A DNA stretch of 43,387 nucleotides from assembly GCA_027449545.1 (NCBI GenBank), contig DAIDLI010000112.1, forward strand, positions 1 through 43,387. Reading direction: 5' to 3'. Position numbers and translations under genes: made by a program. Every line of letters begins with the position of its first letter. The stretch's first letter is position 1. Below, piece by piece: positions 22,169 through 39,562 of the stretch. The notes beneath the pieces were generated by a model that was not told the origin of the DNA, searched no databases, and saw only the letters and a program-made list of their open reading frames with translations. The DNA is from Acidobacteriaceae bacterium. Its GTDB lineage: Bacteria; Acidobacteriota; Terriglobia; Terriglobales; Acidobacteriaceae.

Positions 22169-23464
22169 TTAAAGTGCGAACTGGATTCTGGTCATCGCCA
22201 CTCGCTCCGCGGAAGGCTGGGGAATGCTTCCCCCATGCAGGCGGAAGGCGGTGTATTCGTAATCCGCGACAATCTTCGTGTATCGGTTGATGTACCAGTT
22301 CAGCCCCACCGCCGATTCGCTTGCGCGTTCCGCGGACGCCAGGGGGGACGCGAAGCTGGGGAAGGTGTTCGAGTCCACGCGAACCGCAGCGTGCCGAAAG
22401 GCGATCTCCCATGCGCCGAGGTGGCGAAGACCTGCTCCGGGTTCGAAGGGATGCGCCGGCTGAATACCCTCGTAGGAGTTTCTTTCTCCGGTCAGGACCA
22501 GCGACGCGGATACCTGCCAACTGCGATTGGAGAGGGAACGACGCATGGAGTCCACAGCCACCGTCTGATCCGAGACGATGTATTCGGCGATGGAGCCGAA
22601 GGATTTGAAGAAGTAGAAGCCTTGCGGAGACAGGTGCCGGCGCGGTCCGTCAGCGTATGCCGCGGGAGCGAATTGGAAGAACGTTGCCTGACCGATGGTT
22701 TTCAAGCTGGCGAGGCTGTTTTGGCGATGACCGTGGGAATACGAGAATCCTGCGCCCAGGTTGTGCATAGGCGAAGCCGAGCCGGCAAAAGGCTGGAGGA
22801 AAACGCGGGCCACGCCTTCGCCGTCGCCGCGCCACTCGAAGTTGGCGTTGGCGCCGTCGAGAGCGCTGCTGAAGTATCCAAATTCAAGGATGGCCGCGCG
22901 CTGAAGGAAGGAAGCTTCTACTTGCCCGCCGAGATCGCGAATGGGAACGAGATCGGAGGCCACGGAGCGTTCGGCAAAGGTCAGATCGCGGTCGGAGCGC
23001 AGCACCTCAAGGCCGATGGGCGTCTTGAATTTTCCGACGCGGAGCCGTGCAAACGGACCTATCGCCGTCTCCGCGTAGGCCTCCTGAATCACGGTATTGC
23101 CCTCGCCGAAATCGGGCATGAAGCGGAATTCGAAGCGGTTGGCAAGCACGCCTTCGACAAGAGGACGCACGCGGCGGAAGAGCAGAGTGTTGTGCTGCTC
23201 GCCTTGAACATTTGTAGAGAAGAGGCGGCCGTCGGCCTGAAGATAGCCGTGAACCCGCAACTGGGTGGATCCGTCGTCATTGGAGAGAGTGAGACCCTGT
23301 GCGTTGAGCGTGAGGGCCGATCGAGTTTGATTCGCGTCCGCTATCGTAGCCCCGGCGGAGACCATGTGCTCCGTTGCTCTTTGGCAGTCGATGGACGCGG
23401 GCAACAGGCAACATGCAGTCAGCATGGGAAGGAGCAGGCTGCGACGAAATCTGCAGAGGCCCAT
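22169..23464 (-). CDS. Phosphate-selective porin O/P-like outer-membrane protein
   Basis: About 431 residues, an outer-membrane beta-barrel of the OprO/OprP group of anion-selective porins. Signature features are DFGEGNTVIQEAYAET with ARLRVGKFKTPIGLEVLRS shortly after, alternating amphipathic strands throughout, and a terminal FAL ending on an aromatic strand (MTRIQFAL). The signal peptide starts at 23464 (MGLCRFRRSLLLPML). An upstream in-frame ATG at 23560 has a better ribosome site (AGGAG four bases away) but would put 32 hydrophilic residues before the signal and overlap the previous gene by 29 bp. It is the last gene of the sulfur cluster and may pass sulfate or sulfite; the anion is not shown by sequence. 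Confidence 0.82.
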   Translation of the reverse strand: MGLCRFRRSLLLPMLTACCLLPASIDCQRATEHMVSAGATIADANQTRSALTLNAQGLTLSNDDGSTQLRVHGYLQADGRLFSTNVQGEQHNTLLFRRVRPLVEGVLANRFEFRFMPDFGEGNTVIQEAYAETAIGPFARLRVGKFKTPIGLEVLRSDRDLTFAERSVASDLVPIRDLGGQVEASFLQRAAILEFGYFSSALDGANANFEWRGDGEGVARVFLQPFAGSASPMHNLGAGFSYSHGHRQNSLASLKTIGQATFFQFAPAAYADGPRRHLSPQGFYFFKSFGSIAEYIVSDQTVAVDSMRRSLSNRSWQVSASLVLTGERNSYEGIQPAHPFEPGAGLRHLGAWEIAFRHAAVRVDSNTFPSFASPLASAERASESAVGLNWYINRYTKIVADYEYTAFRLHGGSIPQPSAERVAMTRIQFAL

Positions 23465-23531
23465 CAGTTGCCCCGTTGCCGGTCCGGCACCGCGGCAAGG
23501 CCGTCGGTTGACTGAGTCCGGTTGGGAGGAC

Positions 23532-24518
23532 TCAGCCGCGATGGGCGGGTTCTGACTCATGGGTCTCCTCTACAGGTTCCTGCTGCGCGGCAGGCGCCGC
23601 CTCAGGCTGTGGGCTGCCGGGCTGGATGCGCGCCTTGCGTTTACGGCGCAGGCCATTGGTGAGCAGGTCAGTCAGGAAGCCAGCCAGCACCGCCACCAGC
23701 ACAGCGCCGATGCCGTAGATCCACGGCCTGGCGAAGGCGAGCTGCGCCACGTAGGCTGGGAACCCAACCTCGGTGAGCTGGAGCGTCGCTGTGGACTGAG
23801 CGATGACCTTGTGTTCACGGCAAGCGCACACGGATACCCGGTAACGCCCCGGTGGAATCTTTCGGGGCCACTCGAAATCGACTGCATAGCGGGTTGCCGA
23901 GGCCGACTGGCTGAGGGTCACGATGCCGGCTTGCGCGCGGTAGGTGCCCTCCTGATGCTTGAGCCGGAGGAAATCAGCATAGAGGAGCCGGGAGTAGGCC
24001 GGATCTGGAACTGTGTCGTGGGTGCCCATCTGCTGCGAGCGGTCGGTGAGGCTGCACTTGCAACGGCAGAGCATGCGAATCCGGCTCATAATGGCGGCTT
24101 CATCCAACTGGTGCTCTTCCACCTCGGACCCGCCGAGCAGGGTGGTTACAGCAGTGGAACTGAAACGGAGATACACCGAGGGCGCATGCTTGACGTGAAT
24201 CCTGTCGACCGTCAACCAGATGGGACCCACGCGGCCCTTGCGATTGAAGAACTCATCGCGCTCCGACCCTTCAATCACGATGACCACGCCGGAGCCTGCC
24301 GGAGCGACGCCCTCGATGCGGAGGCGAGCGCCGTTGTAGAAGGCGCCCATCGGAATGGTGTCGGGGATCAGCTTCGGCGGCGGCATCTTGACGGGCCCGG
24401 GAGCGGTGTCCGCGGGCGCGAAGACAACCAGGAGCGCTCCCAGAGCCACGGCCAGAAGCAGTGTTTTTATCTTCTCGCAGCGCTTCGCCAGAGCTACGCC
24501 GAATTGGTGAGCAGTCAC
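23532..24518 (-). CDS. Alph_Pro_TM-like (TIGR02186 type) membrane protein with cysteine clusters
   Basis: About 328 residues. A signal peptide or TM (LLLAVALGALLVVF), a beta-rich periplasmic domain, a C-terminal TM (IYGIGAVLVAVLAGFLTDLL) and a charged cytoplasmic tail are present. Similarity in pattern to the Alph_Pro_TM family is seen in GARLRIEG, RKGRVGPIWLTVDR, YADFLRLK and PPGRYRVSV; members known to me often adjoin TauE/SafE permeases, as here. Unusual are CRCKC (Cys151/153/155) and CAC (Cys231/233). GTG at 24518 overlaps the permease stop (GTGA) with GGGAGGG upstream; an in-frame TTG at 24545 is the alternative start. Function unknown; an accessory to the permease is the likeliest role. 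Confidence 0.75.
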   Translation of the reverse strand: MTAHQFGVALAKRCEKIKTLLLAVALGALLVVFAPADTAPGPVKMPPPKLIPDTIPMGAFYNGARLRIEGVAPAGSGVVIVIEGSERDEFFNRKGRVGPIWLTVDRIHVKHAPSVYLRFSSTAVTTLLGGSEVEEHQLDEAAIMSRIRMLCRCKCSLTDRSQQMGTHDTVPDPAYSRLLYADFLRLKHQEGTYRAQAGIVTLSQSASATRYAVDFEWPRKIPPGRYRVSVCACREHKVIAQSTATLQLTEVGFPAYVAQLAFARPWIYGIGAVLVAVLAGFLTDLLTNGLRRKRKARIQPGSPQPEAAPAAQQEPVEETHESEPAHRG

Positions 24519-25495
24519 CCCATGCAAACCCTCCCGAAGCTGCAAGCAAACCCAACCGAAAGTTGCTGGATTGGCTGGAGATTGAGTGATGCGATCTGAG
24601 AGAACGAGACCGAAGGGGGCAGCACCAGGTCCGCGGCCATGTCAGCCATGACGCCCAGCGCCAGGATGCCGAGCAGAATCATGAGCTGCTCGGCGCGCAG
24701 ATGGCGGCTGAGCCTGGCTCCTATCTGCGCGCCGAGGGTGGAACCCACGGCCACCAGCAGGGCCAATACCACGTCCACGATCTGGTTATCGCCGGCCTGC
24801 ATCACGGTTGCTCCGGCGCAGGTAAAGAGCGCCTGGAAAAGACTGGTTCCCACAGCGACATGCGCGGGCATGCGCAGCATGTAGACCATCATCGGCACCA
24901 GAACAAATCCGCCGGCGACGCCCAGGATAGCGGTGAGGATTCCGACCAGGAAGCACAGTGCAAACGGGACAAAGACGGAGTGGCGAACACCGGAGTGAGG
25001 GAACTCCATCTGCAGGGGAAGGGTGGATATCCAGGTGCGCCTGGGGAGGCCCCCATGCCTGGCGCGAACGATGAGGCCGCTGCGCATTTTGCGTAAGCTG
25101 TCGCGCAGGATGTAACCACCGACCAGGCCCAGCATGACGATGTAAGTGAAGGTAATGACCAGGTCGGCGCTGCCAAGGTGCCGCAGCAGGCGAAGCAGAT
25201 GCACGCCCAGCCAGGAACCCGTGAGCCCGCCGCACAGCAGGATCGCCCCCATTTTGTGATCCACATTGTGCAGGCGGAAATGCGCGGCGACGCCCGACGA
25301 GGAGGTGGCCACGATGGCATTGGTGCCGGAAGCCGCGGCCACCGTGGGTGGCACGCCCACCATCATCAAGATGGGCGTCATCAGGAAGCCGCCGCCAATC
25401 CCCAGCAGCCCGGAGAGCAGCCCGATGATGGCGCCGATTCCAACGACTGCTCCGATGTGGACACTGATTCCGGCGATGGGCAAAAGGATCCGCAT
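24515..25495 (-). CDS. TauE/SafE-family anion permease (copy 1)
   Basis: A 326-residue inner-membrane protein with eight or nine predicted helices in two similar halves. The diagnostic glycine-rich motif GLLSGLLGIGGGFLMTPIL is near residue 25, and its second-half counterpart TAILGVAGGFVLVPMMVYML near 190. Family members export sulfite or sulfonate-derived anions, or import sulfate-like anions. AGGAGGG lies five bases before the ATG. It is clearly paralogous to the permease at 28138-29055. It follows the PEP-synthase-like gene by 37 bp and overlaps the Alph_Pro_TM-like gene. The sulfur-cluster context favours sulfite or sulfate, direction unknown. Confidence 0.88.
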   Translation of the reverse strand: MRILLPIAGISVHIGAVVGIGAIIGLLSGLLGIGGGFLMTPILMMVGVPPTVAAASGTNAIVATSSSGVAAHFRLHNVDHKMGAILLCGGLTGSWLGVHLLRLLRHLGSADLVITFTYIVMLGLVGGYILRDSLRKMRSGLIVRARHGGLPRRTWISTLPLQMEFPHSGVRHSVFVPFALCFLVGILTAILGVAGGFVLVPMMVYMLRMPAHVAVGTSLFQALFTCAGATVMQAGDNQIVDVVLALLVAVGSTLGAQIGARLSRHLRAEQLMILLGILALGVMADMAADLVLPPSVSFSQIASLNLQPIQQLSVGFACSFGRVCMG

Positions 25496-25507
25496 CAGAT
25501 CCCTCCT

Positions 25508-25524
25508 GCGCGGCTACTCCGCGC
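25508..25524 (-). other. Small hairpin between dikinase-like and permease genes
   Basis: GCGCGG-CTACT-CCGCGC is a 6-bp GC stem within the 37-bp gap, directly before the permease ribosome site. It may tune translation or mRNA stability; the evidence is only the dyad. Confidence 0.35.
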
Positions 25525-25532
25525 GGCCGCGG

Positions 25533-28085: not shown

Positions 28086-28137
28086 GGTCTTCGTCCTCTT
28101 GTTGTCCTGCCCCGCACTCGCTCGATACTGCTTCAGC

Positions 28138-29055
28138 TCAGTCTGTTCCCACTACGGAGAGCAGGATCTCCGGCTTGGTGAGCAGGCGGAGCGACATCTT
28201 CACCGCAGTGGCCAGGACAACGCTGGCCAGGACGATGCGCAATTGTTCGCCTCGGAGGACCCGCGAAAGGCGCGCACCGACCTGCGCCCCGATGGTTGAT
28301 CCTGTAGCCACTGCCAGGGCCAGGAAGACGTCGACGGTCTGATTGGTGGCAGCCTGCATAAGCGTTGCGCCGGCACAGGTAAAGAGAATTTGAAACAGAT
28401 CCGTGCCCACAGCGACGTGCATGGGCATGCGCAGGAGGTAGACCATCATCGGCACCATAATGAAGCCGCCGCCGACGCCCATGATGGCGGCCAGCATTCC
28501 CACCAGCACGCAAAGCATAAAGGGCACGAAGACCGAATGACGGATGTTGGAGCGGGGAAAGTTCATTTGGAAGGGGAGCTTCTTGAGTAGCGTGTAGTTA
28601 CGCTCTTGGCTGCTGGTGGCGCTGGGCGCCAGCACTCCGCGGCGCAGGCTCTGCAGGCTTTCCAGGAACATAAAAGAACCTACACTTCCGAGCACGACCA
28701 CGAAGAAAACCGTGATGACAAAATTGGCATTTCCCAAAGTACGCAGGAGCTTGATGATGTGTACCCCAATCGTCGATCCCGAGAGGCCTCCCATCAACAA
28801 GATGGTGCCCAGCTTGAGATCTACGTTCCCCATGCGAAAATGCACTGCGGTACCGGAAAAAGAGGTGCCCACGAGAGAACAGACTTCGGAGGCCGCCGCA
28901 TTCGTGGGGGGCACACCGATCATCATCAGAATGGGAGTCAGCAGAAACCCGCCGCCCACCCCGACCAGGCCGGAGAGCAGTCCGATCATTGCTCCGACCC
29001 CCACCACAAGGAACAGGTTTACGCTCATTCCCGCAACCGGCAAATACAGTTCCAT
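28138..29055 (-). CDS. TauE/SafE-family anion permease (copy 2)
   Basis: A 305-residue inner-membrane permease with motif GLLSGLVGVGGGFLLTPIL and a second-half repeat AAIMGVGGGFIMVPMMVYLL. It matches copy 1 at most positions in both glycine-rich segments and in VGTDLFQILFTCAGATLMQA, so the two are paralogues by duplication. ATG at 29055 has AGGCGG six bases upstream; a TTG two codons earlier (29061) is an alternative. It lies 36 bp after the cytidylate-kinase-like gene and 52 bp before the PEP-synthase-like gene. Probable role is sulfite or sulfate movement across the inner membrane; direction is not determinable. Confidence 0.88.
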   Translation of the reverse strand: MELYLPVAGMSVNLFLVVGVGAMIGLLSGLVGVGGGFLLTPILMMIGVPPTNAAASEVCSLVGTSFSGTAVHFRMGNVDLKLGTILLMGGLSGSTIGVHIIKLLRTLGNANFVITVFFVVVLGSVGSFMFLESLQSLRRGVLAPSATSSQERNYTLLKKLPFQMNFPRSNIRHSVFVPFMLCVLVGMLAAIMGVGGGFIMVPMMVYLLRMPMHVAVGTDLFQILFTCAGATLMQAATNQTVDVFLALAVATGSTIGAQVGARLSRVLRGEQLRIVLASVVLATAVKMSLRLLTKPEILLSVVGTD

Positions 29056-29091
29056 CTCCAACCGCCTTTCCTGGCCGATGGTGGAAGTTGT

Positions 29092-29901
29092 CTACCCCTG
29101 CACGGGGGGAGCAAGTTTATCGAGATCGAGGTCGATCACCCCCGGGATATCCATGGCGATCCGCCTCACCTCCGCGAACTGCTCCGCCGAGGAGAGCTTT
29201 CCTTTGAGTTTGACCACGCCGTCGCTGGCGATTGCTTCCAGCTCCAGGCCCTCGGTAGCCGGCGCGACGGCGAGCATGGCTCTGACCTTGCTGGCCAGCG
29301 CCAGATCCGCGAGCGCCTTGCGGCAGGCGGGCGTGAGCTCGAAGCAGCGCCGGTGCACGGCCGCCGAGACGATGTGGCACGCCGTTTCAATGGTCATCTG
29401 TTCGAGGTTAATGACGAGATCGTAGAGCTCGGGATCGTCCCAATTCACCCCGTAGAGATAGCTGGTCCAGCGGCGTCGCTGGTCATCCATCTTCTGGATA
29501 TAGGCGATGGCCTCGCTGCGCGTGTAGTTGAGCCGCTCGTGGACCATGCGGACGCGATAATCCATGGGCGCGATGAGGCGCGTGCGCAGGATGTGCCGGC
29601 CGCTGCCCAGCAGCAGATGCCCCGCCAGACCGTGGTAGATGACTTTGCCTTCCCGTACCTCCTCGGTCAGGCTGGCCTGGATCAATGCCAGGTACTTGTA
29701 TCTCTTCTGGCTGAACCGCTCCAGAAAGCCGGGCGGTCTCTCCAGCGCGTCGCGAATCTCCTCCTGCGAGACGCCATGGGCGGCCGCCCGCTCCACAATC
29801 ACGTCGCGATCCACGCAGCGATAGCCCAGTCTTTTGGCCAGGCACTCGGCCAGCATCTTCCCGCCGGTAAAGGACCCTCTGGAGATGGTAATGACGGACA
29901 T
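29092..29901 (-). CDS. Cytidylate-kinase-like protein with C-terminal BON domain
   Basis: A 269-residue protein. The N-terminal part is like cytidylate-kinase-like proteins: ITISRGSFTGGKMLAE holds a degenerate P-loop, followed by LGYRCVDRDVIVERAA and the Arg-rich HILRTRLIAPMDYRVRMV. The C-terminal 65 residues (GLELEAIASDGVVKLKGKLSSAEQ ... IAMDIPGVIDLDLD, shown here in parts) form a BON domain, usually a lipid- or ligand-binding module. ATG at 29901 is preceded by AGGAC. It begins 16 bp after a very stable hairpin that separates it from sat. True nucleotide kinase activity is doubtful; a regulatory or sensory kinase role is possible. Confidence 0.82.
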   Translation of the reverse strand: MSVITISRGSFTGGKMLAECLAKRLGYRCVDRDVIVERAAAHGVSQEEIRDALERPPGFLERFSQKRYKYLALIQASLTEEVREGKVIYHGLAGHLLLGSGRHILRTRLIAPMDYRVRMVHERLNYTRSEAIAYIQKMDDQRRRWTSYLYGVNWDDPELYDLVINLEQMTIETACHIVSAAVHRRCFELTPACRKALADLALASKVRAMLAVAPATEGLELEAIASDGVVKLKGKLSSAEQFAEVRRIAMDIPGVIDLDLDKLAPPVQG

Positions 29902-29917
29902 GGTAAGGTCCTGTTCA

Positions 29918-29952
29918 GCCGGCTCGCACGCATCGCAGCAGTGCGAGCCGGC
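29918..29952 (-). other. Strong 12-bp hairpin between sat and the kinase-like gene
   Basis: GCCGGCTCGCAC (29918-29929) pairs perfectly with GTGCGAGCCGGC (29941-29952), with an 11-base loop. It fills the middle of the 83-bp gap after sat. There is no U tract downstream in the transcript direction, so it may be an attenuator, an RNase-protection stem or a Rho-dependent pause rather than a simple intrinsic terminator. Confidence 0.75.
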
Positions 29953-29984
29953 CATGATACGAGTTGCGTTCCACTGTGATCCGC

Positions 29985-31256
29985 TCAGCGCTTCGGCTTG
30001 ACCTCTCCGGTCGCGGCGGAGTGGAGCTGGACTTCCACCTTCTCTTCGAGGCTGTCGTAATACTGTTTCAGAATGGCGATCACCTCGGGCTTCGAGAACT
30101 CCGCAGGCACGGGCTTACCTTCGCTCATCAGCTTGCGCAGCAGCGTGCCGGAGAGCAGCAGACGCGCGCCGCCCTTGTAGTTCCCGTTGTCGTCGATCAC
30201 CGCCTTGCTCTCGTGCGGGCAGGTCTTCATGGAGGCCATGCTGCCGCACTCGTAGCAGTAGAAGGTCCAGTCCATGCACAGCGGCTGGATGGCAAGCGCG
30301 CCGGCGGGCACCTCGTTGAAGATATTCTGCGCTTCGAAGGGGCCGTAGTAGTCGCCTACGCCCGCATGGTCGCGCCCGACGATCAGGTGCGAGCAGCCGT
30401 AGTTCTGGCGGAAGACCGCGTGCAGCAAGGCCTCGCGCGGGCCGGCATAGCGCATCTCCATCGGGTATCCGCCCTGCAGCACCCGCTCCTTGCGGAAGTA
30501 CTTGTTGACCAGAGCATCGATGGCTTTCACCCGCACGTCGGCCGGGATGTCGCCGGGCTTCAGCTTGCCGAGGAGCTGATGGACATACACGCCGTCGCAG
30601 ACCTCGATGGCGATCCAGGCAAGGTACGCGTGCGAGTTGTGCATCGGGTTGCGCAGTTGCAGTGCCGCCACCGTATTCCAGCCGCGCTCCTCAAAGATCT
30701 TGCGGGCGTCGGCGGGACGCTGGTAGATCCCCTTGAACTCCTCCGGGAAGAAGGATTCCGAAACCACTCTCACGGGGCCGGCGAGGTTGATCTCGGCCTG
30801 GTCCATCACCTTCTGCACTCCAGGGTGCTTGAGATCGGTGGTGTGGAATACCTGCCTGCATTCGTGTTCCTTGTCGATCCGGTACTTCTCCTCGACCTTC
30901 ATGGTGCCCACCAGGGCATCGGTCTCCACGTCCCAGAGCGCCACTTCTTCGCCGGGAGCGATCGAGCTGGCGTGCAGCTCATCGGTGGAAAGGGTGATGG
31001 GAATGGGCCAGAACAGGTTCTTTCTGCTGGGAAGCGAATAGCTGTCGCAGCAGCCTTTCCAATCGTCGCGCCCCATGAAGCCGTCGAGCGGGGTGAAGGC
31101 GCCGATGCCCATCATGATCAGGTCGCCGGTTTCGCGGCTGGTGAGCGGAACATGCTTCATGTGTGCCGCCCGCTTGATTTCCTCCGATCGCTCCTTACCT
31201 TCCAGCAACAGCGGTTTCAGGTCGGAGCTGCCATGCGGTGGAGTTAGCTTGTGCAT
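29985..31256 (-). CDS. sat: Dissimilatory-type ATP sulfurylase (sulfate adenylyltransferase)
   Basis: A 423-residue homo-oligomeric enzyme interconverting sulfate + ATP with APS + PPi in the cytoplasm. The nucleotide-binding motif [10 protein letters not shown] (residues 200-209) and GRDHAG (294-299) are intact. A metal-binding-type cluster follows (Cys334, Cys337, Cys346, His348 in [16 protein letters not shown]), as in Sat of sulfate reducers and Archaeoglobus; no APS-kinase domain is fused. ATG at 31256 begins one base after the qmoC stop; a longer frame to 31322 is not supported. Being co-directional with aprBA and qmoABC, it supplies APS for reduction or makes ATP from APS in oxidation. 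Confidence 0.95.
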
Positions 31257-31257
31257 A

Positions 31258-32442
31258 TCAAGACCTCGTTCCCATGACGTGAGGAAGGCCGGGTCCTTCC
31301 GAAGACACAACCTCCGGACCACCAGGCCTCAACTGTCCCCGGCCAGGTGACTTGCTTTCTTGCCATGTAGCTGCCATGGCAATGGTCCGGTAAAGGAAAT
31401 GGACGAATTTGGAGTAAGGCGTGCAGAGAAACAGCGTGAGGACCAGTGAAAGGTGGACGTAATAGATGAAGAACATCCAGTCCAGGCTCTGCGCCAGGCG
31501 CAGGCCCTCGGAAAGGATGCCGGTGAGGCCGATGCCGCCCAGCAGGGCGAGAAAATACCAGTCGCAGAAGGAACTGCCCGCGCGCTTTTCCGGATCGGTG
31601 AGGCGTTTCGCGACCAGGATCGAAATGCCTATGACCAGCACGAGCGCGCACACATTGGCGAAGATCTTGAGCGGATAGAGATTGGGCAGAGGCGTGTCGA
31701 TCAAGCCAAACATGCTGCCGATGCCGACCGCTGTCCCCATCGCGGCCAAGCCGACAAATCCATAGAGCGTGAGCAGGTGTCCGAGCCGCCGGGTTTGCCC
31801 CGCGTTGCAGTTGCCAAAGCGGCGATGGCGGAGGATTTCCAGGAGCGCCGGAACCAGGGCCGGCAAGATAGGACCTCGGGCGCCGGCCGCGCGCAGCGCT
31901 CTTATGAAGCGCACGGTGCCGATGGTCAAGGCCAGCACCACGAAGGCACCTACCGCAAAGAACATCGGCTCCAGCCGGTCCTTGGGAAACATCTGGGCGA
32001 AGACGAAGGGGCGCACCGCGAATTTGGAGATGGGCAGCAGAGCGATGGCGAGTAGCAGCAGCGCGGAGATGAAGAGCACGATCAGGCCGGTCTCCATGTC
32101 GCCGACCAGGCTGCCCATGAAGCGGGGAAAGGCCATACGCCGGATCGCGGCCATGCGCAACGCGTCCATCACCGCCGAGGGCCGCGCACCGCGCGGGCAG
32201 CGCGCGGTGCAGTCTGCGCAGTCGTGGCAGAGCCAGATGGCCGGGTCGCCCAGCAAACGGTCTTTCAGGCCCCACTGCGCCTCGAGCACCTGCTTGCGCG
32301 GAAAGGGCCGCGCTTCCGTCGAGAGCGAGCAGACCGAGGTGCAGGTTGCGCACTGAAAGCACTTCTTCAGCTCGCCGCCGCTGTTCGCGTTCACTTCGCG
32401 AACGAACTCAGGATCGGGTTGGAGCATCAGGGCGTCCGCCAT
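31258..32442 (-). CDS. qmoC: QmoC, membrane heme b/Fe-S subunit of quinone-interacting oxidoreductase
   Basis: A 394-residue fusion of a HdrC-like ferredoxin domain and a NarI/DsrM-like membrane domain. Two [4Fe-4S] motifs are at Cys28/31/34/38 ([12 protein letters not shown]) and Cys72/75/78/82 ([12 protein letters not shown]). About six TM helices follow (about 105-350), with His residues suitable for heme b ([19 protein letters not shown]). It connects the quinone pool to QmoAB and so to AprBA. ATG at 32442 is 2 bp after the qmoB stop. The last 35 residues are a Pro/Gly-rich soluble tail. Confidence 0.94.
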
Positions 32443-32444: not shown

Positions 32445-34703
32445 CTAAAACCCCTTGTATGGGTTGGGGCCCAGTTCGCGGATTCGGGCGACGAAATCGT
32501 CGATCACCTGGGGAACGCGATCGCATTCGTCAATGGCTAACTGCACCAGCTCGATCCGTCCGGATTCGAGCTGCAGCCGTTCCAGGGTGTCTTTGACGTT
32601 TTCCAGGCGGCGGCTGGCCAGCTCGCTGCCGCGGATGAAGTGGCATTGGTAGTCATCGCCAAACTTGCAGCCCATCAGCATCACGCCGTCGATGCCCCGG
32701 GAGAGCGCATCGGCGATCCAGACAATGTTCATGGAGCCCAGGCAGCGCAAGGGAATCACGCGCACGCTGGCATCGTAGGTGCGGCGATTCATGCCCGCCT
32801 GATCGAGAGCGGGATAGGCATCGTTCTCGCAGGCGAAGATCAGGATGCGGGGCTTGTCCTCGGTCTCGTCCGGCACTTCGATGGCCTTGGTCATAGAGGC
32901 GATCATGTCCACCGAGTAGTTTTTGAACGAGATGATGCGCTCCGGACAGGCGCCCATGCAGATGCCGCAGCGGCGGCAGCGGTAGGGATTGAAGCGGGGC
33001 GTACCCTTCTCGTCTTCGTCGATCGCGCCGAAGGGGCACTCGACGGTGCAGCGCTTGCACTGCGTGCAGCGCTGCAAGGCAAAGATCGGATACGACAGAT
33101 CGCCGGCGCGGGGATGAACGGCCTGCCCCTGGACCGCCATCTCCACGCACTGGATAGCCTTCATCATGGCGCCGCCGGCGTCTTCGGCGGCGAGCACGGA
33201 GTCCATGGGAGCGCGCACCGCCCCGGCCGCATAGATGCCGGTACGCTGGGTTTCGTAGGGGAAGCAGACGAAGTGAGAGTTCGGAAAGCCGTTCTGTAAA
33301 ACCGGCAGATCCGGGCCCTGACGGTAGCCGAGATTCAGAATCTCGGTGTTCGCATGGCGTTCGAGAAGGCCGATGGTCTTCTGCGCCTCCGCAACCTGCG
33401 CCTCCGACTCCTTGCGCTCCAATTTCTTTTGTGCATCGCGCAATGTCTGAATAGCGTTGTTGTCCGCCGAGTTGGGCACCATGCCGGTGGCCAGCACCAC
33501 CAGGTCGACGGCCAGGTTCAGCGGTTCGTCCTCGCCCAGAAGGCTTCCGCGCAAGGTGGCGACGATCTTGCCATCGCCGTTGCGTTCGAGCTTCTGGACC
33601 TCGCCCTTGAGAAAGAAGTTCAGCGGATGGCTCTGCAGCTTCTCGTAGTACCTCTCGTAGAAGCCGGGCGTAACCATGTCCCGGTAAACGATGAAGATCT
33701 GAACATCGGAGTGCTGCTCGCGGAAGTATTCGGCCTGTTTGAGTGCGGCCGTGCAGCAGACGGTGGAGCAGTAGCTCAGGTGGTTGGGATCGCGGGAGCC
33801 CGCGCAGAGCACGAACAGAACGCTGCGCACAGGCTTGCCATCGGAGGGACGTAGCATGACCCCGGCCGCCGCCGCCTTCTCCACCTGGACATTGGTCATC
33901 ACATCGGGCAGATCGCAGCCCGGGAGGTCGAGCTTCGCCGGGTCGTATGGCTTCCATCCCGTCGCCATCACGATGGCGCCTGCACGAACCGTGGCTTGAT
34001 TCTGTCCCTGGCGAAGTGCTACGTCGAACATGCCCGGCTGGCCGTCGATCCTGAGCACCTCCGCCGAACAGAAGACCGTGACCAGCGGATGAGACTTCAG
34101 TGCCTGAATCTTTTCGCCCAGTCCCGCGGTCTCCGCGCTGGTGTAGGGCGGGTGCACGGGAAAGACCCGCTTCAGGCCGCCAACAAAGCCGCCCAGCTCC
34201 GCCTCCTTTTCCACGAGGATCACTTCATATCCGGCGTTGGCGCCGTCGAGAGCGGCATGGATGCCGGCGACGCCACCACCCACCACAAGAACGGTGCGGG
34301 AGATGGCCTCCGCCAGCGGCTCGAGCGGCTCCATCTTTTCCGCCCTGGCGATGCCCATGCGCAGGCAATCTTCAGCCAGCATCTGTGTGTCTTCGTCCCG
34401 GGCGGCATGCGACCAGGCCACCTGCTCCCGCAGATTCACGCGCTCCACAAGCGAGGCGGGTCCAAAGTCGAAGGATGCGGTTTTCGCGCGCGGCGAGCAA
34501 GCCGCTACGACCACGGTGTTCACCGAGCCATCGGCGAGATCGCTGCGAATCTGCGTCAGCCCTTCTTCACCGCACAGGAACGAGTGCGTGCGGCAGATGG
34601 GGACCTTCCGCTCCCGGGTTGCTACCAGTGCCAGCCGGTCGAGGTCGAGCGCCTCCCCGAGGGAGCAGCCACTGCAGATGTACACGCCCAGTTGCTTATT
34701 CAT
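32445..34703 (-). CDS. qmoB: QmoB, FAD/Fe-S subunit of quinone-interacting oxidoreductase
   Basis: A 752-residue HdrA/MvhD-like flavoprotein. Features in order: an HdrA-type N-terminal Cys motif (YICSGCSLGEALD), the FAD Rossmann motif VLVVGGGVAGIHAAL (about residue 137), LCAGSRDPNHLSYCSTVCC, two ferredoxin motifs (CTQCKRCTVECP and CRRCGICMGACP, about 555-600), and a C-terminal MvhD-like domain with Cys ligands (FACEND, RCLGSMN, GCKFGDDYQCHF). ATG at 34703 has GGAG six bases upstream and overlaps qmoA by 8 bp; an ATG at 34715 is possible. It shuttles electrons between AprBA and QmoA/C. Confidence 0.94.
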   Translation of the reverse strand: MNKQLGVYICSGCSLGEALDLDRLALVATRERKVPICRTHSFLCGEEGLTQIRSDLADGSVNTVVVAACSPRAKTASFDFGPASLVERVNLREQVAWSHAARDEDTQMLAEDCLRMGIARAEKMEPLEPLAEAISRTVLVVGGGVAGIHAALDGANAGYEVILVEKEAELGGFVGGLKRVFPVHPPYTSAETAGLGEKIQALKSHPLVTVFCSAEVLRIDGQPGMFDVALRQGQNQATVRAGAIVMATGWKPYDPAKLDLPGCDLPDVMTNVQVEKAAAAGVMLRPSDGKPVRSVLFVLCAGSRDPNHLSYCSTVCCTAALKQAEYFREQHSDVQIFIVYRDMVTPGFYERYYEKLQSHPLNFFLKGEVQKLERNGDGKIVATLRGSLLGEDEPLNLAVDLVVLATGMVPNSADNNAIQTLRDAQKKLERKESEAQVAEAQKTIGLLERHANTEILNLGYRQGPDLPVLQNGFPNSHFVCFPYETQRTGIYAAGAVRAPMDSVLAAEDAGGAMMKAIQCVEMAVQGQAVHPRAGDLSYPIFALQRCTQCKRCTVECPFGAIDEDEKGTPRFNPYRCRRCGICMGACPERIISFKNYSVDMIASMTKAIEVPDETEDKPRILIFACENDAYPALDQAGMNRRTYDASVRVIPLRCLGSMNIVWIADALSRGIDGVMLMGCKFGDDYQCHFIRGSELASRRLENVKDTLERLQLESGRIELVQLAIDECDRVPQVIDDFVARIRELGPNPYKGF

Positions 34704-35970
34704 GGCCGGCTCCATTGGTTCTGTTCCGCATCGCCTTCAGAGCTGCGCCGGTGGCATCGCGTATGGAAGCGGCCACTTCAGCGGGGCGCTTCACGCATCC
34801 GGATGCGTACACGCCCGGCGGGCCGCTGCTCACAAACCCGAATTCATCAATCAGGAGGTTGATCGGGAGTCCGCTGCTTTGCGGCACCATGCCCACGGCA
34901 AGCACCACCAGGTCGTACTCGCGGGTGCTCTTTCTGCCTTTGAGCACATCTTCGGCGGTAACCAGGAGGTTGCCAGTCTCTGTATCCTGCTCCACCTTGC
35001 CGGCTTTACCCTTGATCAGCTCAAGCTGGTTTGCCGCAACCGTCTTGGCCGCGAAGTCTTCCAGGTGCCCCGGAGTGCGAAGGTCGATATAGAACACAGT
35101 GATCGTGGCCTCGGGGTACTGCTCGCGGATGTAGGTAGCCTGTTTGAGCGAGGCCGTGCAGCAGACGCCGGAACAGTAGGGAAGGTGATTCCGGTCGCGC
35201 GATCCGGCGCATTGAACAAAGGCCACGCTGCGCGGCGGCTTGCCGTCGGAAGGACGCAGGATTCTGCCGCCGGTGGGCCCATCGGGCGCAGCCATGCGCT
35301 CCAGCATCACGTTGGTGACTACATGCGGGAACCTGCCGAAGCCCAGGTTGTCGATTTTGCCGGCATCGTAGGGCTCCCAGCCGGTGGCCAGGACGACGGA
35401 GGCTACGCGCAAGGTCTTCTTCGCGGGCCGCTGATCGAGGTCGATGGCGCCGAACTTGCACGCATCCGCGCAGAGACGGCAGCCCTGCGGGCATGCGCTC
35501 CGGTCGATCCGAAACTGAAGCGGGAAGGCCATCGGATAGGGGCGGTGAATCGCCTTCTTCTTGCCAATCCCGCAGTTGAACAGGTCTGGAACTTGGGTGG
35601 GACAGACCGCCGTGCATGCGCCGCAGAGGGTGCAGCTTTCTTTCACGAATCGCGGTGCGGTCCGGACCACGGCTTGGTAGTTGCCCGGCGATCCGCTCAG
35701 GCTTTCCAACTCGGCAAGCGTCAGAATCTCGATCTTCGGGTTGTTGTGCAGGCGGCGGGTATTGATCTCCAGACCGCAGGGCGGCGGGCAGAGCTTGGGA
35801 AAGTAACGATGGAAGGCGGCAACATGGCCGCCTAGATATGCCGATTTCTCAATCAGGACGACGGGATTGCCCGCTTCGGCAGCTTCGATTGCGCAGGTGA
35901 GCCCTGTGATCCCGCCGCCCACAACCAGGATGGGAGCGCGCTCTCGACTGCTGCTCTCAGGACTGGGCAT
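34696..35970 (-). CDS. qmoA: QmoA, FAD/Fe-S subunit of quinone-interacting oxidoreductase
   Basis: A 424-residue HdrA-like flavoprotein. It has the FAD motif ILVVGGGITGLTCAIEA (residues 14-30), HVAAFHRYFPKLCPPPCG, a [4Fe-4S] motif CTLCGACTAVCP and a second Cys group (CPQGCRLCADACKFGAID), then FVQCAGSRDRNHLPYCSGVCC. Length is normal for QmoA. ATG at 35970 is chosen because the residues upstream (a longer frame to 36183) overlap the YkgJ-like gene out of frame. It overlaps that gene by 14 bp and qmoB by 8 bp. With QmoB and QmoC it transfers electrons between membrane quinones and APS reductase. Confidence 0.94.
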   Translation of the reverse strand: MPSPESSSRERAPILVVGGGITGLTCAIEAAEAGNPVVLIEKSAYLGGHVAAFHRYFPKLCPPPCGLEINTRRLHNNPKIEILTLAELESLSGSPGNYQAVVRTAPRFVKESCTLCGACTAVCPTQVPDLFNCGIGKKKAIHRPYPMAFPLQFRIDRSACPQGCRLCADACKFGAIDLDQRPAKKTLRVASVVLATGWEPYDAGKIDNLGFGRFPHVVTNVMLERMAAPDGPTGGRILRPSDGKPPRSVAFVQCAGSRDRNHLPYCSGVCCTASLKQATYIREQYPEATITVFYIDLRTPGHLEDFAAKTVAANQLELIKGKAGKVEQDTETGNLLVTAEDVLKGRKSTREYDLVVLAVGMVPQSSGLPINLLIDEFGFVSSGPPGVYASGCVKRPAEVAASIRDATGAALKAMRNRTNGAGHE

Positions 35971-36796
35971 ATTCGCCACCAGGCTGTTCGGTAGGGGCGC
36001 TGATTCCCGAGGCGGGTTGTGAGGCGGAGGCCGGCTTTCGCAGGCGCATGGTCTTTTCGTGAAAGAGGCTGAAGGCCAGCCAATCAATCGCGAACTCCAG
36101 CAGTTCCTCGTCGTCTTCCGCGATGGCTTGTATGCGCGACTCCTCCACTTCGAAGAGCTCGAGAAAGCGGGACTCGAAGACAAAGCGGCGAAAGCGATCC
36201 AGATCGTAGAGAGCCGTCAGATACATGTCGAGCTTGGCGGCTGTCGTAGACTCCGGCGAATCCCACCCAGGGTGGGCGAGCAGCGCGAGAAACGGCCCCT
36301 GCATCTGGTCGAAGGCCTCGATCTCCTGCTCGGTGATCCACTCGCGGATGGAATGTTGGTCGGGTCCGCGATGTCCCTGGCAGATCGTTTCGGTCACCAG
36401 AAAATAGAACCGCTGCGCGGCAGCATCCGGTTCCTTTGGCTCCGCCATGCCCAGCGGATACATGCGGCAGGCCCAGGGCCGATGCGGATAGACGCTGCAA
36501 CCGGCCTGGCCAACAAACGGGCACTGGCGCGTCTCTTCGGTCATGCGCAACAGCACCACCGGAACCTGTCTCTCCCGCGAGCGCGCCACCAGCGTGTGTT
36601 TTTCCAGAAATTCGGAAGAGTCCATGTGCAGGGCCTTCTTCAAGCGCAGCACATCGTAGGGCGAGAGCAGGATGGTGACGTCGGCGCAGCAGCGGTTGAA
36701 GCACTCCCGGTCGGGGCCGCAACGAAAGGTGAAGCGGGTGTCGAGGCCGAGCCGCGGCTGGTCTTCGAGAATCTGCTGCTGAATGGATTCAGGCAT
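35957..36796 (-). CDS. YkgJ-family cysteine-cluster protein
   Basis: A 279-residue soluble protein with a zinc/iron-chelating-type CxxCxxxCC-like cluster: CGPDRECFNRCC near residues 26-37, then CPFVGQAGCSVYPHRPWACRMYP near 91-115. These Cys residues are expected to bind a metal or Fe-S cluster. The rest is helical with an acidic C-terminal half. It overlaps the upstream zinc-finger gene by 8 bp and qmoA by 14 bp, so it is translated with the electron-transfer subunits. A role in cluster insertion, metal delivery or assembly of AprBA/Qmo is plausible but not shown. Confidence 0.85.
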   Translation of the reverse strand: MPESIQQQILEDQPRLGLDTRFTFRCGPDRECFNRCCADVTILLSPYDVLRLKKALHMDSSEFLEKHTLVARSRERQVPVVLLRMTEETRQCPFVGQAGCSVYPHRPWACRMYPLGMAEPKEPDAAAQRFYFLVTETICQGHRGPDQHSIREWITEQEIEAFDQMQGPFLALLAHPGWDSPESTTAAKLDMYLTALYDLDRFRRFVFESRFLELFEVEESRIQAIAEDDEELLEFAIDWLAFSLFHEKTMRLRKPASASQPASGISAPTEQPGGEYAQS

Positions 36797-37076
36797 CTGC
36801 GTCCGCCTCCTCGGCGAGAATGTTGCTCTTCAATGCGTCGCGCGACCACACGGGAAGCGGACCGCTCTCGCCGCTTTGCGGCTCGAGCCGGTAACGGTAG
36901 CTGGCGGTCACGTTGAAGTGGCTCTTCATCCACTCCCAGCCGCGCAGGTAGTACGGACATTCGTCGTTGAAGCAGACCCACTGAAACTCGCCGTTCCAGG
37001 AGGTGACTTGGGGATTGGCCCAGCGCTGCATGGGCTTCTGGCAATGCGGGCAGCGGGTATCGGTGATTCGCGCCAT
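36789..37076 (-). CDS. Small Ogr/Delta-like zinc-binding protein
   Basis: A 95-residue protein with a four-cysteine zinc site: CPHC (residues 9-12) and CFNDEC (35-40), in the arrangement of Ogr/Delta-type zinc fingers. The rest is basic and aromatic (WEWMKSHFNVTASYRYRL). Such small proteins occur near aprBA in sulfate reducers, from memory. It follows aprA by 109 bp, across two hairpins, and overlaps the YkgJ-type gene by 8 bp. It may act in assembly or regulation of APS reductase; function unproven. Confidence 0.82.
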   Translation of the reverse strand: MARITDTRCPHCQKPMQRWANPQVTSWNGEFQWVCFNDECPYYLRGWEWMKSHFNVTASYRYRLEPQSGESGPLPVWSRDALKSNILAEEADADA

Positions 37077-37100
37077 GACCCTGGTCTCACGGAAGCTTGT

Positions 37101-37158
37101 GGTGAGGAGCCCCGGCCAATGCCTGAGCCCCTCACCGGGTTCCAGCCAAAGCTGGAAC
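37101..37158 (-). other. Two hairpins in the aprA downstream gap
   Basis: Transcribed first is GTTCCAGC-CAAA-GCTGGAAC (37139-37158), a perfect 8-bp stem with a four-base loop. Next is GGTGAGG/CCTCACC (37101-37107 with 37130-37136). Both sit in the 109-bp gap between aprA and the zinc-protein gene. No U tract follows. They could protect an abundant aprBA transcript or reduce read-through to qmoABC. Confidence 0.7.
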
Positions 37159-37185
37159 GCTACATCGGTTGCGCGCGCCGACAGC

Positions 37186-39111
37186 CTAGTCTGCTGCCAC
37201 CGCGACCTTGGTCTCCTGGAAGACTGGGATGATCGGCCGGGTGAGCATCTCCCAGTTTCCAGACTTGGGATCGTAGCGGCAGTTGGCGAAGACGTGCCAT
37301 TGCTTCTCGTCCAACTGCGGCGTATCGGTCCTCATGTAGTAGCCGGGCCAGCGCGTTTCCTGACGGAACAGCATGGTGCGGACGTGGGCTTCGGCCTGCC
37401 ACATGCGGTGAACGTTCTCCCAGCACCGCATCAGCTCGTGCGTGCTCGAGGCCGCCAGCTTCTCCGCGTCTTCCTTGAGGAGGGCCAGCAGTTCCAAAGC
37501 CCGCTCCAACTGCGCCTTGTTGGTGCTGAATTGCGCAGTGACACCACCCGCGTACTCGTCCATGATCTTCTGCAACCGGAACATGAAGGAGCGCGGCTTG
37601 ATGTAGTTGGGGTTGACGTCCTCATCGGTCGTCAGCTTCCGGTTCTGCTCAAAGGTCTCCAGCGGCTTGAGAACGTCCTGGACGATCTTGTCCACCTCCG
37701 CCTGGTCCATCTTCGGCAGCGCATTGTGCTCCACGATGAACTTGATGGCGGACTTGGCGGCGATTCTGCCCTCGGCGTGCGATCCCGAAGAGAACTTGTG
37801 GCTCGAAGCCCCGGAAGCGTCGCCCGCGCAGAACAGGCCCTGAACGGTCGACATGTTGGTGTAGCCCCAGAAGTACTGGGACCTGGTCTCGTCGGTCTGC
37901 AGATCCTCCGGACCGCTGAGCCACGCGCCGGAGGCACCGGAGTGCGAGCCGATGAAGTAAGGCTCGGCGGCGGCGATCTCCGAGCTCTTCTGCTCCGGCT
38001 GGACGTTGGAGCCGGCCCACAGAATCGCCTGTGAGATCGTCATGTCGAGGAAGTCTTCCCAGGCTTCCGATTCCAGTTCCTTCATCTTCTTCTGGTAGGC
38101 CTTGGGATCGTCCTTGTACTGCTCGGCGATCTTGCCCAGGGCTTCTTCGGTGCGCATGGAGATGGGTCCCTTGCCGTCGAGCACGTCCAACATGCCGAGA
38201 TAGTTGCGCAGGTTGGCGGGCACGGGCTTAACGCGGCCGTACGGCCCCCACTTCTCCAGCTCCGGCCGGCGCTCCACCATGTAATCGCCGCCCATGGCGT
38301 TGGTGGCCCGCGACTTGAACAGCAGGAACCATGCGCCCACGGGACCGTACGCGTCCTTGAAGCGCACCGGGATGAAACGCACTTCCTGGCAGGTCATCTC
38401 GGCGCCGGCCTTGATGGTGAAGTAGGCGGACGAGCCGGAGTTCCACGGTGGATACCAGGCGCGCCCCATGCCTTCGCCCGAGCTCCGGGGCTTGAAGACG
38501 TGGACCGCTCCGCCCATGGCCGCCAGCGTGGCCTTGGAACGGAAGATGTAGACCTTGTTCTCGCGTACCGAGAAGCCTACGGCGCCGGCGCAGCGATCGC
38601 CGTCCATGATCGGCCCCACGATGAAGATGCGTTCGAAGATCTCTCCCACGCCGCTGCCCAGCAAGGCGTTCTTCGCGGCTTCCGCCACCACCACCTTGTA
38701 GGACTCCCCGTTGATCATCAGTTGCCAGCGGCCCTCGTGGACATACTTGCCGTTTTCGTCCTTCCAGATAGGCAGGCCCCATTTCTCGAAGAGGTGAACG
38801 GACGAGTCCACGTGGCGTGCGATGTTGGCGACCAGGTCCTCGCGGGTAACGCCCATCAGGTCGTTGCGCACGTAGTCCACATAGTCCTTGACACTGTTGG
38901 CGCCATCCTTCAGGCCCACGTATTGATTGATGGCCGAGAGGCCCATGGCCACGGCGCCGGAGCGATCCACGGCGGCCTTGTCGACCAGCGTCACCTTCAG
39001 GCCGTTCTGCTTGGCCCAGTGCGCAGCCTCCACCGCGGCGCCGCAGGCCGCCATGCCCCCGCCCAGAATCAGCAGATCGGTTTCAACGACGACGACTTCG
39101 GGATTAGGCAT
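37186..39111 (-). CDS. aprA: APS reductase alpha subunit (AprA)
   Basis: A 641-residue FAD enzyme that interconverts APS with sulfite and AMP. The FAD dinucleotide motif is LLILGGGMAACGAA (about residues 13-26). Conserved family segments include RSGAVAMGLSAINQY, SGEGMGRAWYPPWNSG, RFKDAYGPVGAWFLLFK, GDYMVERRP and GDASGASSHKFSSGSHAEGR, consistent with the substrate and FAD pockets of AprA. Length matches known AprA. The start overlaps aprB by 8 bp. Sequence alone does not tell whether it works reductively or oxidatively; association with QmoABC is compatible with both. Confidence 0.96.
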   Translation of the reverse strand: MPNPEVVVVETDLLILGGGMAACGAAVEAAHWAKQNGLKVTLVDKAAVDRSGAVAMGLSAINQYVGLKDGANSVKDYVDYVRNDLMGVTREDLVANIARHVDSSVHLFEKWGLPIWKDENGKYVHEGRWQLMINGESYKVVVAEAAKNALLGSGVGEIFERIFIVGPIMDGDRCAGAVGFSVRENKVYIFRSKATLAAMGGAVHVFKPRSSGEGMGRAWYPPWNSGSSAYFTIKAGAEMTCQEVRFIPVRFKDAYGPVGAWFLLFKSRATNAMGGDYMVERRPELEKWGPYGRVKPVPANLRNYLGMLDVLDGKGPISMRTEEALGKIAEQYKDDPKAYQKKMKELESEAWEDFLDMTISQAILWAGSNVQPEQKSSEIAAAEPYFIGSHSGASGAWLSGPEDLQTDETRSQYFWGYTNMSTVQGLFCAGDASGASSHKFSSGSHAEGRIAAKSAIKFIVEHNALPKMDQAEVDKIVQDVLKPLETFEQNRKLTTDEDVNPNYIKPRSFMFRLQKIMDEYAGGVTAQFSTNKAQLERALELLALLKEDAEKLAASSTHELMRCWENVHRMWQAEAHVRTMLFRQETRWPGYYMRTDTPQLDEKQWHVFANCRYDPKSGNWEMLTRPIIPVFQETKVAVAAD

Positions 39112-39562
39112 GAGCGCCTCCTTTGGTGTTCAGACTGAAGACCTCGGGGAGCCCCAGCGACGCAGGCTCGGTGAAGAGCGCCGCGTTGAAGAGATCGCCC
39201 TTCGACTCGAAGCCGCCATCCGGAACCGCGGTCCCTTCCGGGGTGGTGCGGATGGGGAACTTGAAGCGCTTCAGGGTCCCGTTTCTGAATTTCACAGTCC
39301 ACATAATCGAGTCGGTGGACCGCAAGGGCGTGACAGACGCGCCCATGGGCACGAAGTCCGCGTAGCCGCGAACCTGAACCGCTTGCGTTGGGCAAATCTT
39401 CACGCAGTTGTAGCACTCCCAGCACATCGCCGGGTCGCGGTTATAGGCCTTCTGCGTGTTCTTGTCCAGGACCATCAGGTCGTTGGGACAGATATGCTGA
39501 CACGCGGTGCGATCCAAAGCCTTGCAGCCATCGCACTTCTCCGGGTTAACGTAGCTCGGCAC
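39104..39562 (-). CDS. aprB: APS reductase beta subunit, di-[4Fe-4S] ferredoxin-like (AprB)
   Basis: A 152-residue electron-transfer partner of AprA. Two [4Fe-4S] clusters are encoded: Cys10/13/21/25 (CDGCKALDRTACQHIC, with the AprB-specific insertion) and Cys47/50/53/57 (CWECYNCVKICP). The C-terminal half forms the extended tail that wraps AprA (SIMWTVKFRNGTLKRFKFPI). The start is GTG at 39562 with a strong GGAGG six bases upstream. It is the first gene of the long sulfur cluster and overlaps aprA by 8 bp. QmoABC is the expected electron partner. Confidence 0.95.
   Translation of the reverse strand: MPSYVNPEKCDGCKALDRTACQHICPNDLMVLDKNTQKAYNRDPAMCWECYNCVKICPTQAVQVRGYADFVPMGASVTPLRSTDSIMWTVKFRNGTLKRFKFPIRTTPEGTAVPDGGFESKGDLFNAALFTEPASLGLPEVFSLNTKGGAHA

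Follow-up and report, generated by a model that had tools for sequence, protein, structure and literature searches.

A conserved sulfur-linked gene block with a dikinase-like protein and paired TauE/SafE permeases adjoins sat-aprBA-qmoABC in Acidobacteriota

Introduction

The stretch of DNA analyzed here (the window, 43,387 nucleotides) is contig C112 of a 221-contig, 4.43-Mb metagenome-assembled genome of an Acidobacteriaceae bacterium, estimated to be 93% complete and labeled G000. In it, the genes for dissimilatory sulfate activation and adenosine 5'-phosphosulfate (APS) reduction, sat-aprBA-qmoABC, are followed by a block of genes encoding a kinase-like protein fused to a BON domain (kinase-BON), two TauE/SafE permeases, a dikinase-like protein and an Alph_Pro_TM protein. 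The locus raises the question of whether these downstream genes take part in sulfate respiration or happen to lie beside it and, if they take part, what they contribute. Import and metering of sulfate by sulfate reducers are poorly known (PMC5840216, in excerpt).

The downstream block is a real, conserved module linked to sulfur metabolism. Its genes probably form a dedicated helper system of sulfate respiration, because some of them occur, in the related genomes searched, almost only where sulfate genes occur. The module is undescribed as far as open-access searches reach.

Co-occurrence with aprA and dsrA

Whole-genome searches covered Acidobacteriota, as a main set of 396 genomes and a set of 59 relatives. 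Profile searches of the main set recovered the C-terminal domain (C-domain) of the dikinase-like protein in 18 genomes and aprA in 24, with both in 17, where about one shared genome is expected by chance (hypergeometric p 2e-23, uncorrected for phylogeny). The dikinase is present in six of the nine families that bear aprA and in no other family; aprA-negative members also exist in families f1, f37, f54, f71 and f85, none of them with the dikinase. The C-domain profile gave 43 matches in this search, some genomes yielding three to five, and 20 regions were hand-picked around part of them. Alph_Pro_TM was found in 16 of the 396 genomes, 15 of which carry aprA. The sixteenth, G194, is also the sole genome of this set with the dikinase and without aprA; this genome, of 67% completeness, carries part of dsrA.

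Among the 59 relatives, full-length dikinase genes were found in four, a count that leaves out G015 and G029 (matches covering the ATP-grasp part alone), and aprA in three, one of these (G058) being a fragment below the cut-off. G025 has the dikinase and no aprA match; its dikinase contig breaks off within the adjacent upstream TauE gene, and the genome holds a fragment of dsrA. Across ten genomes, dikinase and aprA identities are correlated (rho 0.67, Mantel p 0.0005), which fits co-inheritance, although shared species history alone could give the same result.

A first-pass annotation of the window had suggested counting how often the downstream genes accompany sulfate genes, on the understanding that an equal abundance in other settings would speak against a link. 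Within Acidobacteriota the outcome does not refute the link, as TauE, kinase/BON, sat, apr, qmo or dsr genes are frequent at dikinase loci. Specificity was borne out for the dikinase C-domain and Alph_Pro_TM, both nearly confined to aprA genomes, and not for the other two families. TauE occurs in 14 of 14 control genomes, with eight genes in the entire 4.43-Mb genome of the window, and Cytidylate_kin2 (PF13189) in 203 of the 396 genomes. Being widespread, both families were rejected as specific markers.

Of 15 genomes checked for dsrA, 13 gave a match, G000 included. In the latter, another contig (C216, locus L131) holds dsrA and, by reading, dsrB as full-length frames, followed by a frame read by eye as dsrL; dsrL has been reported with dsrAB in peatland Acidobacteria (PMC6018796, in excerpt). 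In dsrA of G018, G000 and G032 an in-frame TGA was flagged, apparently just the regular stop of full-length frames of 409-415 codons. G153 (locus L152) and G185 (locus L141) carry aprA and gave no dsrA match, the latter genome being just 64% complete. DsrD (PF08679) had no match in any genome, and the controls were also without match.

Conservation of gene order and neighborhood

The full window order, aprB to porin, recurs in G018 (loci L016 and L017) and in G032 (L018 and L019); in the latter, two additional kinase/BON copies and another gene are inserted after sat. L023 repeats the order from inside aprA through the porin, and L025 and L026 retain parts of it. Protein identity between the G018 and G032 loci and the window ranges from 48 to 93%. 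Because the whole order recurs in two further genomes the cluster is more than chance, and a fortuitous arrangement was rejected on this ground together with the co-occurrence with aprA. Of the named relatives found, L022 is the nearest, with 97% identity in the dikinase.

More distant loci (e.g. L029, L032, L035, L040, L046) hold several of the kinase-BON, TauE, dikinase and Alph_Pro_TM genes in shuffled orders, with sat, apr, qmo or dsr genes nearby. Partners within 10 kb of the dikinase were counted at 43 chosen loci, 23 of which have at least 5 kb on both sides. TauE was found at 31 of the 43, kinase/BON at 23, Alph_Pro_TM at 18, histidine kinase plus receiver at 19 and sat/apr/qmo/dsr at 17; the corresponding numbers at the 23 well-flanked loci are 19, 15, 13, 12 and 11. 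The window's own locus was not counted, while L022 and L047 (see below) were. The count excludes L016-L021 and L119-L121 (further or longer views of included places), L103 (a continuation of L102) and the 30 loci L049-L078; among these 30, 25 duplicate loci already used, L050 is the window itself, and L056, L069, L070 and L076 are further places on stretches of less than 4 kb.

A whole-collection scan with a five-sequence dikinase alignment (A2) and two short peptide patterns returned 27 loci, 26 of them titled as Acidobacteria or acidobacterial groups and one (L047, positions 2-1150) as Bacillota; because the patterns are narrow, distant relatives in other phyla could be missed by it. The L047 contig begins inside the dikinase gene, where a single frame runs from the dikinase C-domain into a different protein, read by eye as LolA-like. 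This locus is probably chimeric or mislabeled, and was hence not taken as a second phylum. In plasmids, a tblastn search with the dikinase returned 228 records and one with the C-terminal part of a paralog 12, none spanning 80% of the query, and the kinase-BON query gave no match. A scan of IMG/VR gave six weak relatives (27-34%) that match no further than residue 537.

The dikinase-like protein

The 850-residue dikinase-like protein consists of a helical N-terminal domain, a PPDK_N ATP-grasp domain (residues 126-430; PF01326, 226 bits), a phospho-histidine mobile domain (470-537, with His504; PF00391, 49.7 bits) and a C-domain (about 560-850). The ATP-grasp motifs and the His504 motif align in phmmer with the solved phosphoenolpyruvate (PEP) synthases 8a8e and 2ols. 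An alignment (A5) was made of the window copy and 23 full-length divergent copies, hand-picked from a larger number, which share 30-35% identity; alignments A3 and A4 hold 24 and 27 chosen rows. All 24 sequences of A5 keep K130, R224, E405, Q418, R420 and His504, which fall inside the motifs aligned to 8a8e and 2ols. We take these residues to be the catalytic ones of PEP synthase and of pyruvate phosphate dikinase (PPDK).

The protein shares with PEP synthase (PpsA) and PPDK the ATP-grasp and mobile domains with conserved motifs, and differs from them in its N-terminal helical domain and in a C-domain of about 290 residues, without Pfam match, that stands in place of the PEP/pyruvate-binding barrel. 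None of the 24 aligned members has a Pfam match beyond PPDK_N and the mobile domain at E 0.01. NCBIfam scores are below the cut-offs for PEP synthase (TIGR01418, 235.7 bits against 739.75, covering profile positions 3-465 of 784) and for PPDK (TIGR01828, 24.9 against 843.45), and identification as a true PEP synthase or PPDK was rejected on these scores and the missing barrel match. PPDK is controlled through phosphorylation of a threonine two residues before the histidine; such control was likewise rejected, this position being alanine in several members.

H595, D596, R599, H602, H729, N744, R763 and D815 of the C-domain are invariant in A5. AlphaFold predicts an alpha/beta domain (predicted local distance difference test, pLDDT, 73, with some low-confidence stretches), for which fold searches returned no convincing known fold. 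The full-length model has a pLDDT of 74.5 and a predicted template modeling score of 0.44, so its domain placement is unreliable. In G307 and G171 a separate protein of 327-328 residues adjoins a dikinase paralog (L106, 5975-6961; L107, 12142-13125); that of G307 has no Pfam match and aligns weakly to the C-domain (hhalign probability 70, E 4e-5), without the catalytic domains.

At loci of the divergent copies, a receiver lies at most one gene from the dikinase in 13 of 15 cases, counting L102/L103 as one and with L105 and L110 as exceptions, usually together with a histidine kinase. Ten neighbors of paralogs searched in Pfam comprised two receiver-only proteins, six histidine kinases (one with a receiver) and two proteins without match. 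Tandem or divergent pairs of dikinase paralogs amid receivers and histidine kinases were observed at L102, L115, L116 and L118.

Gene content and organization of the cluster

The cluster comprises 14 co-directional genes on the minus strand, from aprB down to the porin (39562 down to 22169), as established from the open reading frame (ORF) list and family searches (Table 1). The latter (Pfam, NCBIfam) covered 11 of the 14 genes, all except aprB, qmoA and qmoB. With sat and aprA above curated cut-offs and the qmo genes in order, the upper part is a dissimilatory sat-aprBA-qmoABC module. Gene starts come from a simple codon-usage script that misses genes and gives qmoA and qmoB one shared label.

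Table 1. Features of the window, with the evidence for each.
Feature	Position	Strand	Evidence
aprB, APS reductase beta subunit	39104..39562	-	ORF; comparable frames, at 81-92%, ahead of aprA in the loci listed; name from reading and order
aprA, APS reductase alpha subunit	37186..39111	-	TIGR02061, 881.6 bits (cut-off 641.75)
Ogr/Delta-like zinc-ribbon protein	36789..37076	-	PF04606, 36.2 bits (cut-off 26.3)
YkgJ-like CxxCxxCC zinc/iron-chelating protein	35957..36796	-	PF03692, 35.6 bits (cut-off 23)
qmoA	34696..35970	-	Codon-usage start; order with qmoBC; named by reading
qmoB	32445..34715	-	ORF; 75-76% in G018, G032, L023; named by reading
qmoC (iron-sulfur and nitrate-reductase-gamma-like membrane domain)	31258..32442	-	Pfam Fer4_8, Nitrate_red_gam; codon-usage start
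sat, sulfate adenylyltransferase	29985..31256	-	NF003166, 472.3 bits (cut-off 387); PF01747, PF14306; codon-usage start
Cytidylate_kin2 P-loop kinase-like domain fused to BON domain	29092..29955	-	PF13189, 131.8 bits; PF04972, 30.6 bits
TauE/SafE (TSUP) permease 1	28138..29061	-	PF01925, 165.4 bits (cut-off 32.6)
Dikinase-like protein, 850 residues	25533..28085	-	PPDK_N and phospho-histidine mobile domain
TauE/SafE (TSUP) permease 2	24515..25495	-	PF01925, 155.9 bits (cut-off 32.6)
Alph_Pro_TM protein	23532..24518	-	PF09608, 136.7 bits
Porin_O_P outer-membrane porin	22169..23560	-	PF07396, 67.7 bits; start uncertain, 23365-23560
Divergent dsrM-like and dsrK-like genes	40294-41220; 41217-42824	+	ORFs, codon-usage starts; named by reading

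Overlaps join aprB/aprA (8 bp), zinc-ribbon/YkgJ-like (8), YkgJ-like/qmoA (14), qmoA/qmoB (20) and TauE 2/Alph_Pro_TM (4). The gaps are 109 bp between aprA and the zinc-ribbon gene, 2 bp between qmoB and qmoC, 1 bp between qmoC and sat, 29 bp between sat and kinase/BON, 30 to 36 bp (by the start chosen) between the latter and TauE 1, 52 bp between TauE 1 and the dikinase and 37 bp from there to TauE 2. Alph_Pro_TM and porin overlap if the porin starts at its ORF start of 23560, whereas the start given by the script, 23365, leaves a gap of 166 bp. Thus, the first-pass description of a single-strand run with gaps of at most 109 bp and many overlaps holds with the former start, while its count of thirteen genes from aprB to porin has to be corrected to 14. 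No minus-strand terminator-like match falls in the gaps of the cluster, and the scans are near those of shuffled sequence (promoters 5 against 3.3, terminators 15 against 13.2).

The kinase-BON protein has distant PDB relatives in 3hdt (putative kinase) and 3fdi (uncharacterized), and the Alph_Pro_TM protein scores under the NCBIfam cut-off of TIGR02186 (60.9 against 255.25). Below the porin, LolD-like ATPase and LolA-like genes (20228-21792, named by eye) continue in the same direction; they were rejected as cluster members because synteny stops at the porin, different genes being found there in L023, L024 and L034. The divergent dsrM/dsrK-like pair is repeated in L016.

Neighborhoods of aprA were surveyed in 23 of the 24 aprA-positive genomes, that of the window being left out, by tblastn, since the script misses genes. 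Zinc-ribbon and YkgJ-like genes were both found in 20 of the 23, between aprA and qmoA where order was called, and for this reason they count as part of the phylum's core apr-qmo operon. In two of the misses, G185 and G435, the 3' end of aprA lies about 120 bases or less from the contig end. In the third, G153, about 600 bases follow aprA with no zinc-ribbon frame, a real miss for that gene but not one that bears on YkgJ. The porin was found in two of the 23 neighborhoods, both within the window's genus; it occupies the same place in L023, L024, L025, L026 and L034, and porin-like genes lie elsewhere near L048, L118 and L148.

These distributions split the support system that had been proposed for the whole set of genes around sat-aprBA-qmoABC. 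The idea remains plausible for kinase-BON, both TauE proteins, the dikinase-like protein and Alph_Pro_TM; it does not extend to the zinc-ribbon and YkgJ-like genes, as core apr-qmo members, and for the porin it is limited by the narrow occurrence of that gene. For the zinc-ribbon and YkgJ-like proteins a role in metal-center or iron-sulfur assembly of AprBA/QmoABC appears more likely, given their cysteine motifs.

Comparison with known systems

The sat-aprBA-qmoABC gene set is shared with other sulfate reducers, to which the window adds the zinc-ribbon and YkgJ-like genes between aprA and qmoA and the transport/dikinase block. The closest counterpart of the block is the 'nitrate cluster' of Desulfovibrio (DVU0251-DVU0245/Dde_0597-0605), described in the passages available of PMC4001038 as comprising the TauE protein DVU0251, a PtxB-like protein, a histidine kinase, the receiver-only protein DVU0247 and the PPDK-type protein DVU0246, whose only annotated domains are the PPDK ATP-grasp and mobile domains. 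Both systems thus combine TauE with a PPDK-type protein that lacks the PEP barrel, on the Desulfovibrio side by the paper's annotation only, and both occur in sulfate reducers; histidine kinase and receiver adjoin there as they do at most divergent acidobacterial paralog loci. In contrast, the nitrate cluster has PtxB-like and phosphatase genes, kinase-BON, Alph_Pro_TM and porin are unlisted in those passages, the cluster is not described there as adjoining sat/apr, and the window copy has neither histidine kinase nor receiver beside it.

Transposon mutants in DVU0246, DVU0247, DVU0250 and DVU0251 grew at 100 mM nitrate as without nitrate, a DVU0245 mutant did not, and pooled and single-mutant results for DVU0250 conflict (PMC4001038, in excerpt). 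A leaky thiosulfate transporter was proposed by the authors, who cite unpublished mild thiosulfate defects (same passages), and nitrate resistance has been linked to loss of putative thiosulfate transporters (PMC9723548, in excerpt).

TSUP (TauE family) genes near sat/apr are reported for Desulfosporosinus and a few other sulfate reducers; a permease near sulfate activation is thus shared, while dikinase, kinase-BON and Alph_Pro_TM go unmentioned in that excerpt (PMC5840216). Import of sulfite was suggested for a highly expressed tauE homolog of Archaeoglobus (PMC3949148, in excerpt). In peatland Acidobacteria genomes, 'syntenic genes 1-4' are shown as conserved proteins of unknown function (PMC6018796, Fig. 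2, in excerpt); coming from the same phylum and pathway they may include some of the window's genes, which the available text neither names nor describes.

An open-access full-text search, spanning neither subscription papers, preprints nor supplements, returned no title or abstract opening that describes the gene set. By text search TauE and dikinase are both absent from PMC10564751, PMC8528874, PMC10591310, PMC10504309 and PMC9448743, and the text of PMC10102598 holds none of the terms DVU0246, DVU0249, DVU0251, PEP, thiosulfate and dikinase (TauE was not among the terms sought). The earlier view of the downstream set as the best candidate for an undescribed system is therefore upheld in that it merits study and was not found described, and tempered by the comparable Desulfovibrio locus of TauE and dikinase-type genes with known phenotypes (PMC4001038, in excerpt).

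Proposed function and alternatives

The reading that we favor, tentatively and at a little under even chances, is that the block is an oxyanion transport module under ATP/phospho-histidine control, joined to an operon of aprBA, zinc-ribbon, YkgJ-like, qmoABC and sat. The two TauE/SafE permeases would move a sulfur oxyanion (sulfate, sulfite or thiosulfate) for Sat, Apr or Dsr, assisted by the Alph_Pro_TM protein in the membrane or periplasm and, in the closest relatives, by the outer-membrane porin. Judging from its residues, the dikinase-like enzyme may phosphorylate its own swiveling histidine from ATP with release of AMP, and the phosphoryl group would then pass to a ligand or partner held by the C-domain, whereby the permeases are powered or gated. 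A common pathway is suggested by the conserved autophosphorylation residues, the frequency of the TauE partner and the equal phenotypes of TauE, receiver and dikinase-type mutants of Desulfovibrio; control or powering of TauE by the phospho-enzyme would follow from such a pathway. The control role that histidine kinase and receiver would have at the paralogs may fall, at the window copy, to the kinase-BON protein.

A bolder version, which we consider unlikely, would make the dikinase-like protein the core of a new class of phospho-histidine-controlled transporter. Its histidine would be charged by ATP and discharged by AMP plus phosphate, AMP being the product of AprBA, so that oxyanion entry through the paired TSUP proteins would be coupled to sulfate activation. 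This would resemble a phosphotransferase system without PEP or sugar, with the C-domain as the acceptor docking on permease or receiver.

Several observations weigh against transport under dikinase control. The 17 genomes with dikinase and aprA are not independent of one another, and genome-level searching was limited to Acidobacteriota. Seven of the 24 aprA-positive genomes (G136, G148, G153, G162, G185, G214 and G222) have no dikinase match, and the dikinase therefore does not look required for sulfate reduction; two of them, G136 and G185, possess Alph_Pro_TM. Twelve of the 43 dikinase loci lack TauE within 10 kb, several being cut by contig ends, and two of the 23 well-flanked ones (L033, L044) lie near neither TauE, sulfur genes nor kinase/receiver. 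Pfam searches of the window dikinase's neighbors found no histidine kinase or receiver. The likeness to DVU0246 is one of annotated domains (PMC4001038, in excerpt), and substrates of the TauE family are hard to predict from sequence (PMC5840216, in excerpt).

Among the alternatives, an activity as biosynthetic ligase or phosphotransferase fares best, though we hold it unlikely. As in rifampin phosphotransferase or PigC, a small molecule (e.g. an organosulfur compound) would be phosphorylated or joined and the product moved by TauE. The dikinase-like protein is matched over the same part by the Rph, PigC and RedH models, and the invariant polar residues of the C-domain would suit such a role; yet the scores lie far below cut-offs (rifamycin phosphotransferase Rph, NF041857, 190.2 bits against 999; PigC 154.4 against 1300), no biosynthetic partner genes were recognized, and a role in control is suggested instead by the receivers and histidine kinases that flank the paralogs.

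Those same receivers and histidine kinases, with the BON domain on the kinase-like protein, would also suit a module for signaling alone, monitoring the state of sulfate respiration to regulate genes, with the TauE proteins as sensors and not carriers. This is less likely still, since TauE/SafE proteins described in known cases are permeases. The sulfite exporter of Cupriavidus necator is cited for the family (PMC5840216, PMC3949148, both in excerpt), and the Desulfovibrio phenotypes were ascribed by their authors to nitrate entry (PMC4001038, in excerpt).

The chemistry of the pathway invites a further alternative. In it, Sat produces pyrophosphate (PPi) and AprBA produces AMP, and the dikinase gene is the third after sat. 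The enzyme could run in reverse, rebuilding ATP from the AMP of AprBA with phosphate or the PPi of Sat and a phosphorylated donor on the C-domain, the kinase-BON protein helping with AMP. The residues of the ATP half-reaction are conserved, as this would demand. However, a PEP-binding barrel match is found in none of the 24 members, use of PPi is unlikely because the ATP domain resembles PEP synthase far more than PPDK (235.7 against 24.9 bits), and the frequent TauE partner and the receivers are left unexplained; we regard such energy recycling as improbable. Hitch-hiking of the downstream genes, without functional tie, on a sulfur island that spread among Acidobacteriota would agree with the few window relatives that carry the island (dikinase 4/59, aprA 3/59), but is very improbable in view of the association in six families, the rearranged orders, the separate loci and paralogs at 30-35% identity.

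Implications

Across the acidobacterial genomes searched, aprA is closely tracked by the dikinase-like C-domain and Alph_Pro_TM, and the apr-qmo operon there almost always includes the zinc-ribbon and YkgJ-like genes. If transport under phospho-histidine control is the true function of the block, the nitrate-sensitivity locus of Desulfovibrio would become easier to explain, and a laboratory strain that is easy to work with would offer a genetic handle.

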